NCBI GenBank assembly: GCA_016841185.1
Contig: JAENZQ010000025.1
Location: forward strand, 1 to 57,791
From: Anaerovorax odorimutans
Lineage (GTDB): Bacteria; Bacillota; Clostridia; Peptostreptococcales; JAAYPU01
Reading direction: 5' to 3'
Length of the DNA stretch: 57,791 nt
Both the position numbers and the translations under genes were made by a program. Numbering within the stretch: the stretch's first letter is position 1; the number at the start of each line of letters is the position of its first letter. Below are positions 31,276-31,913 of the stretch, in pieces. Below the pieces are notes generated by a model. It was not told the DNA's origin. It saw only the letters and a list, made by a program, of their open reading frames with translations, and searched no databases.

Positions 31276-31625
31276 GGGGGCGTACAGGTTTCGACGGGGG
31301 TATTGAAGCAGAAGAAGCGAGCCGTTGTCGCCAAGTCAACGTTAAAAATGGCAACCTAAATATAAACGCAAAGAATAATAATTACGCATTAGCTGCGTAA
31401 TCGCAGCTCGTCTCCTCTGACTCACCTGTAGGTCAGAGATCAGGCGTCGATGATACAGGAAAACTTCTGATGAGGGCTCCGGCATCAGAGGGAACAAGGA
31501 GATAGCCGAACGTACAGCCTGCTGATAGGCGGTACAGGAAGCGAATAATAAATTATCAGCTGCGCTCGGAGAAACTTTTGTGAATGTGCTTTCGGACGTG
31601 GGTTCGATTCCCACCGCCTCCACCA
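31276..31625 (+). ncRNA. ssrA: Transfer-messenger RNA (tmRNA)
   Basis: The 5' end GGGGGCG pairs with CGCCTCC before the encoded CCA at 31623-31625, forming the 7-bp acceptor stem. The tRNA-like T arm (GGTTCGATTCCC) and the conserved start GGGGGCGTACAGGTTTCGACGG are present. The resume frame at 31368-31400 encodes the tag AKNNNYALAA followed by TAA, a normal clostridial-type degradation tag. The length of 350 bases is usual. Just downstream the 3' end is repeated, so the gene looks like a used integration target that still encodes an intact product. Confidence 0.97.
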
Positions 31626-31633
31626 ATTAAATT

Positions 31634-31661
31634 AATACACCATGATTAAGGTGTTTTTTTA
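31634..31661 (+). terminator. Terminator of ssrA
   Basis: ACACC and GGTGT form a short stem around an 8-base loop, followed by seven Ts. Confidence 0.6.
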
Positions 31662-31824
31662 TTGCAACAATGTTGTTGTTGAACCCACGTCCAGAGGGGA
31701 TAAAAGGGGAGAGCATTTCCCATTTTTGGGATGAGCTTGCTCATCGGATTACCTTTTCGGGGGTGACAGGCACCAGAAAGTGCCGCCAAGAGGGGGCAGA
31801 GCACCCTATGGGGAGCGGAAGCGA

Positions 31825-31857
31825 CGGATGGGGGTTCAATTCCCACCGCCTCCACCA
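31825..31857 (+). repeat. Second copy of the ssrA 3' end (att-like direct repeat)
   Basis: These 33 bases match the end of ssrA (31593-31625) with three mismatches, including the T-arm half, the acceptor strand and CCA. There is no tmRNA body in front, only about 200 bases without a gene. The stretch from 31681 also carries a 12-base inverted copy of GGACGTGGGTTC from the same ssrA end. tmRNA 3' ends are common integrase target sites, and integration normally duplicates exactly this part. No integrase gene is seen in the window. Confidence 0.75.
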
Positions 31858-31913
31858 AAAAATCAAAGTGCCCTGAAGACACTGTTTTAATGCATAATTA
31901 ACAATGAACAATT

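Follow-up and report, generated by a model that had tools for sequence, protein, structure and literature searches.

Why does the 3′ end of the transfer-messenger RNA (tmRNA) gene ssrA of Anaerovorax odorimutans recur a short distance downstream of itself, and what lies between the two copies? The stretch that raises this question is contig JAENZQ010000025.1 of assembly GCA_016841185.1, analyzed at its full length of 57,791 nucleotides (hereafter, the window); the window is the whole contig, and the surroundings of the locus are known up to the contig end. Genes for transfer RNA (tRNA) and tmRNA are typical landing sites of phages and islands, those with integrases and kilobases of cargo, and an earlier sequence-only reading suggested that a decayed island may have left the repeat as a scar or that the repeat may border a larger island. 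Our analyses point instead to a small, hairpin-rich element that appears to be inserted at the 3′ ends of many tRNA genes in two distant bacterial groups, Clostridia and Omnitrophota. Judging from sequence comparisons, the window locus is probably (at roughly 0.6) one copy of this gene-less, non-autonomous insertion element, which would leave the host tRNA intact. The copies compared show a usual unit composed of the host T-arm to 3′ end with its trailer, an antisense T-arm, the hairpin core and a second host T-arm to 3′ end.

A Conserved Hairpin Core Separates Two Copies of the tmRNA 3′ End

ARAGORN placed ssrA, the host gene of the insertion, at 31276-31625 on the forward strand, which also carries all the other parts of the locus described here, and predicted the tag peptide AKNNNYALAA; Rfam RF00023 matched the gene with 190 bits. 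The left direct repeat (31593-31626) is the intact tmRNA 3′ end from the T-arm to CCA, and the right direct repeat (31825-31858) is a second copy with three mismatches. The two 34-nt stretches are identical at 31/34 positions, CCA included, and have a spacing of 232. The sequence-only reading had described this duplication at the same coordinates as 33 nt long and had noted a 12-base inverted copy at 31681; both were borne out, the latter as a left arm (31681-31692, GAACCCACGTCC) whose 12 nt are antisense to the tmRNA T-arm without a mismatch. A chance origin was rejected. When the downstream 500 nt were dinucleotide-shuffled 300 times, no stretch matched the 34-mer better than 20/34, and elsewhere in the window the best matches were 20/34 (forward strand) and 19/34 (reverse strand). 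An exact antisense 12-mer of the 34-mer arose in 1 of 2000 shuffles.

The 198 bases that separate the repeats contain a conserved core (31693-31825) made up of five covarying hairpins and the tail GGAGCGnnAGCGAC, a core that the earlier reading had overlooked. The hairpins emerged from an alignment of five Clostridia cores. H1 (31707-31721, GGGAGA/TTTCCC) corresponds to a helix that covaries in Omnitrophota, and H5 (31786-31811, CCA..GGGGGC AGA GCACCC..TGG) is also clear in that phylum. Between them lie H2 (31730-31745, GATGAGC/GCTCATC), which is not seen in the Omnitrophota type, H3 (31749-31766, TTACC/GGTGA) and H4 (31769-31784, GGCAC/GTGCC). Using the structure that we named for the five Clostridia copies, changes on both sides of the helix were present in 9/32 pairs, compared to 0-3 when the partners were slid. 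A second alignment, of 23 copies, gave both-side changes in 6/21 pairs (38 cells vs. 11.7 in shuffled controls), and 97.3% of its cells pair in a structure predicted from the same alignment. By our reading of the alignment and folds, the forward strand of the element also has tetraloop-like loops and G-U pairs. None of the cores scanned reached the gathering score of any Rfam family, and a known Rfam RNA was rejected as an identity for them. Permuted tmRNA (RF04321) was rejected as well, as its scores of 32.4 and 30.6 bits fall short of the gathering value of 47 and come chiefly from ordinary tmRNA sequence.

The Element Occurs in Clostridia and Omnitrophota

A BLAST search of the window's own genome (G000) retrieved from another contig a second copy of the between-repeat stretch, 81% identical, located directly after tRNA-Arg(ACG) and followed by a repeat of both the 3′ end and the terminator of this tRNA. 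Two other genomes of the family were searched in the same way. The one from a sister genus (G002) has cores after tmRNA and after tRNA-Arg(CCT) and one copy ending in the tRNA-Arg(CCT) 3′ end; BLAST found no core in the other (G001). We built from these five cores a covariance model (R1) that covers the stretch between the left arm and the right repeat and excludes the tRNA copies. R1 scored the window core, a training member, at 135.9 bits and recovered one extra G002 copy, after tRNA-Ala(GGC). When applied to 391 genomes of the class, R1 had matches at E<=0.01 in nine, three of them strong (G000, G254 and G269); the G254 copy follows tRNA-Pro(CGG) and the G269 copy follows tRNA-Thr(CGT). Because there was no tRNA in the loci of the six weak Clostridia matches (L020-L025, 17-22 bits), these were treated as chance and rejected.

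Scanning GTDB contigs with a sequence pattern returned at least 117 stretches and, among the matches listed, R1 confirmed five: two of G002, L078 (Omnitrophota STC_87), L042 (bacterium FW104_bin.10) and L126 (Clostridiales AS22ysBPME_288). In the phylum of L078, R1 matched 29 of 285 genomes at E<=1e-4. A second model (R2), made from 23 copies from Omnitrophota and the genome of L042, again excluding the tRNA copies, matched 70 of 384 Omnitrophota genomes at E<=1e-6. Trained without the window, R2 matches the window core at 31702-31816 with an E value of 1.7e-4 (66 chosen loci searched). Within a survey of tmRNA loci of relatives, R1 detected the core in 2 of 26, those of G000 and G002; no tmRNA match was obtained from G001 in this survey. 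The G000 and G002 tmRNA insertions, which might go back to a single old event, look alike by eye over their first ~38 nt and are 65% identical in the 5′ part and 59% in the 3′ part, and the 3′ part of the window element is 87% like the tRNA-Arg copy of its own genome.

Most Copies Follow tRNA Genes and Repeat Their 3′ Ends

To describe the genomic position of the element we counted distinct copies with a retrieved locus (60), many of the R1 and R2 matches having no locus. L020-L025, the partial L169, L170 (E 0.08), an upstream match in L244 and repeats of places already counted were excluded. In 43 of the 60 copies the end of a same-strand tRNA or tmRNA gene lies no more than 100 nt upstream (gaps of 0-88 nt), and the hosts comprise 19 anticodons and tmRNA, or 20 kinds. 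The 3′ end of the host is repeated after the core, with at least 18/28 bases matching, in 40 of these 43 copies. By contrast, just 20 of 995 control positions in the same loci were near a tRNA or tmRNA gene, and 4/995 had a 3′-end repeat. The three poor 3′ copies are those of L015 (13/28), L019 (15/28) and L272 (7/28, at a contig edge). Units are about 150-260 bp in size, contain no genes and sometimes form tandem arrays of two or three. Indeed, among the 17 other copies, L171, L282 and the second unit of L078 are later units of such arrays. The copies in L271, L277 and L288 come after a group I intron (Rfam RF00028) and a tRNA 3′ end, in a tRNA missed by ARAGORN. L197 and L259 are located at the edges of contigs, the gap of L198 measures 217 nt, and L014 finishes with the 3′ end of a tRNA-Arg next to an island.

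One site, between tRNA-Met and tRNA-Val, is seen both empty and filled. It is empty in L245 and L246, where 14 and 15 bp separate the genes and the antisense arm is missing, and filled in L194, L243, L078, L042 and L171, the last of which has two tandem units. The site is also filled in L249, with most of the core deleted. In L194, native pre-tRNA-Val sequence follows the right-hand copy of the tRNA-Met end. Thus, insertion at the 3′ end of ssrA, as the sequence-only reading had proposed, is supported, because this arrangement is found again at many tRNA genes and one site exists in both states.

The Left Arm Is Antisense to Its Own Host

The match of the left arm to the T-arm of its own host is general. 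The summed local antisense score of 33 copies was 346, as compared to 214±10 when the hosts were permuted, and none of 20,000 permutations reached 346; in the sense direction, the control gave 169 vs. 163±6. The own host scored best for 23 of the 33 left arms. Furthermore, where the tRNA-Arg(CCT) copy of G002 differs from that of L126 on one side of the T-stem (GGATGT/GGACGT), the arm has changed with it (ACATCC/ACGTCC).

Right-hand copies in L183, L190 and L078 have an extra hairpin that interrupts the T-loop, with the stem halves that face the antisense arm kept. Two further loci have a long antisense tRNA copy and no core: L296:223-330 (G002 tRNA-Arg(ACG), score 26) and L297:1570-1673 (G001 tRNA-Arg(TCG), score 22), in each of which a short CTGTGGGGGAWGCGC stretch comes next. 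These may be core-deleted copies or a second kind of element.

Proposed Mechanism and Alternative Explanations

Insertion in the T-arm of a tRNA gene would duplicate the 3′ end of the gene, often with part of the trailer, and this duplication would keep the host tRNA intact. That host genes of so many kinds stay intact is easier to explain by duplication of the target than by a 3′ end carried along with the element. The antisense arm may be made from the host T-arm by the insertion reaction itself, through fold-back copying. Alternatively, it could be kept matched later by replication template-switching between the inverted arms, a process that parts of two reports describe as homogenizing inverted arms (PMC8604942, PMC8794818). 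The folded core, as RNA or as single-stranded DNA, would be recognized by a putative trans-acting enzyme. As a tentative proposal, to which we give somewhat less than an even chance, the copies could represent a new class of mobile elements: gene-less hairpins that enter nearly any tRNA or tmRNA gene at its T-arm, spare the host gene by duplicating its 3′ end, and have their own upstream arm rewritten antisense to the T-arm of the new host, each copy thereby carrying the address of its host.

Several observations weigh against an insertion element. Excision or movement was not seen and the enzyme was not found. Seven of the 60 copies (L173, L174, L193, L195, L196, L268 and L276) are not after a tRNA; L195 lies 3′ of tmRNA on the opposite strand and L268 lies 5′ of tRNA-Cys. 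The direct repeats range from 17 to 126 bp (28 copies) and some include the left arm, which is untidy for one insertion reaction. Other left-arm/host pairings outscore the window's own in 2 of 32 cases, and on the other side of the tRNA-Arg(CCT) T-stem the L126 arm does not follow its host. In 13 of 28 copies, though not in that of the window, the helix between the left and right arms exceeds every one of 30 shuffled-arm controls. Also, the forward strand of the window element folds slightly better than shuffles (z -1.6) and the reverse strand does so more clearly (z -2.7). Finally, the reverse transcriptase family PF00078 is not commoner in carriers, as it is present in 3 of 12 element-rich and 5 of 12 element-free Omnitrophota.

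A cis-acting regulatory RNA would explain the locus without mobility. Its antisense arm would control maturation or read-through by pairing with either the second T-arm or that of the nascent tRNA, and the sequence would be kept by selection and spread only by descent or gene conversion. The same-strand downstream position of 43/60 copies, the covarying fold and the arm matched to its own host all agree with such a role, but the patchy occurrence (70/384 Omnitrophota genomes and 2/26 tmRNA loci), the 20 kinds of host genes, the tandem arrays, the duplicated 3′ ends and the empty sites make it unlikely. We give the same low weight to retroposition, in which the RNA of the element would be copied at a T-arm nick by target-primed reverse transcription and the end of the complementary DNA would fold back on the T-arm to produce the antisense arm. 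This route would account for the target duplication, for a left junction that varies and for an antisense arm specific to the host, and the tetraloop-like loops and G-U pairs on the forward strand are in its favor. However, PF00078 had no match in two carriers, G254 and the window's genome, the latter listed as 100% complete. Because the window's genome has no match to this family and element-rich Omnitrophota are not enriched for it (3/12 vs. 5/12), a resident reverse transcriptase does not seem to be required.

Folded attachment sites are known in the attC of integrons and the attP of CTX phage, and in the present case the arms might similarly fold into a duplex that reproduces the T-arm, for a tyrosine recombinase to join to the tRNA gene. 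The inverted arms around a hairpin core fit this model, as does the T-loop, the known crossover place of ssrA islands in the portion of the Dehalococcoides study consulted (PMC3146451). Against it, each of the 20 kinds of hosts would require a unit with a matching 3′ end, the arms are not always well paired and no integrase was found near the window copy (20 proteins). This model is slightly less plausible than the previous two. More improbable is a guide-RNA-like molecule whose antisense arm would direct an RNA-guided system, Tn7-like or other, to tRNA genes. It has the appropriate layout, a 5′ target-matching arm and then a structured scaffold, and a Tn7-like transposon (TniQ, TnsA-TnsB fusion, TnsC) lies between two G002 copies. 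Yet this is one neighborhood of six, our open reading frame (ORF) reading recovered no such genes in the others, and the second T-arm copy is left unexplained. The island scar or edge is the least probable of these alternatives. One pair of G002 copies does flank a Tn7-like island, but the reading is unsupported because the 232-bp unit, with its conserved core, is a member of a family, because there is no integrase, transposase or phage match among the 20 window proteins searched and because just one of the six neighborhoods with listed ORFs, contig C6 of G002, has an island, the other five having none. The scar was rejected given 20 window proteins without an integrase, transposase or phage family. 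The claim that the window has no integrase or phage gene thus held for these 20 proteins (27.6-56.3 kb, Pfam). The sequence-only reading had also called for a comparison with relatives and named the same duplicate at the same place in distant relatives without an island as evidence against its view; this is what the tmRNA core of G002, from another genus of the family, presents, although with a decayed right repeat. The sequence-only reading was correct as to insertion at ssrA and found no support as to an island.

Comparison With Known Mobile Elements

We could not find a description of this element family: among the matches listed from open-access literature (preprints and subscription papers aside), none described such an element. 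Miniature inverted-repeat transposable elements (MITEs) and other non-autonomous miniature elements are small, gene-less, repeated and hairpin-forming and have a duplicated target, all features that the element shares. Unlike in MITEs, its inverted arms match the host tRNA and are not constant, so they differ from the constant terminal inverted repeats that MITE copies share, and the duplicated stretch ranges from 17 to over 100 bp rather than being a fixed short target duplication. To our knowledge, the element has no partner transposase. The attC sites of integron cassettes carry RYYYAAC and GTTRRRY boxes and are used by the integron integrase. These sites and the folded attP of CTX phage have in common with the element inverted arms around a structured middle, but the element targets the tRNA T-arm and the 3′ end of the host gene is duplicated. 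Repetitive extragenic palindromic (REP) sequences and their REP-associated tyrosine transposases (RAYT) also involve short dispersed hairpins, though we know of no tie between REP/RAYT and tRNA 3′ ends. Instead, a REP-like motif seems to interrupt some copies of the element (L019). At L019:1436-1628, L014:5607-5735 and L296, all or part of this motif (GGGGACATTCC...GTGTCCCC) seems to have been inserted within an element copy or next to one.

Integrative elements that target ssrA and tRNA genes are the closest in position. The excerpts available of one report describe Dehalococcoides ssrA islands that enter at the T-loop, generate a 20-bp direct repeat and carry serine recombinases and cargo (PMC3146451). 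As far as these excerpts go (PMC3146451), the islands resemble the element in their site of insertion around the T-loop, in the direct repeat made of the host 3′ end and in the occurrence of tandem insertions. The 232-bp unit has the att-like repeat of the host 3′ end that characterizes integrative elements and lacks an integrase gene of its own. The present element also differs in measuring 150-260 bp rather than kilobases, in carrying no genes and in having a conserved hairpin core, an antisense T-arm and host genes of many kinds. In contrast to such islands, a unit of ~150-260 bp without genes occupies the same place in 20 kinds of hosts across two phyla, and its arm matches the host it sits in. 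Should the unit be mobile, it would represent a tRNA-targeting element of very small size and would raise the questions of which enzyme inserts it and how the antisense arm is remade for each host. Direct repeats of tRNA ends need not mark islands.

Genomic Surroundings and Additional Observations

A Pfam search of the 20 window proteins encoded between 27.6 and 56.3 kb identified no integrase, transposase or phage families. The proteins are ordinary and include a signal peptidase, SmpB, a LysR protein, tripartite ATP-independent periplasmic (TRAP) transporters, decarboxylases and a two-component system. Between ssrA and the element there is a terminator-like hairpin with a T-run (31637-31661; consensus match only). 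A phage or plasmid origin was examined and rejected. BLAST searches with the window stretch and the L042 core had no matches in phages; in plasmids, the window stretch matched eight records, only over the right tRNA-end repeat, and the L042 core matched none. Pattern scans of IMG/VR returned 14 stretches with the tail pattern, the best scoring 20 bits over 29 nt with R1 and none with a convincing core, and 0 with the Omnitrophota H5 pattern.

The island on contig C6 of G002 (L013:14118-19273 and L014) has the Tn7-like transposon genes encoding TniQ, a TnsA-TnsB fusion and TnsC between two element copies, both of which are joined to tRNA-Arg(CCT) sequence. It also encodes a trypsin-like and a radical SAM protein as well as, judging from the ORFs, a DNA methylase and a helicase-like protein. 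In Omnitrophota, L271, L277 and L288 are apparently intron-bearing tRNA genes with the element downstream. Two places off tRNAs in the same phylum (L193/L270 and L276) have a terminator-like hairpin in place of the T-arm copy and look as if they had been reused as a stand-alone RNA or terminator.
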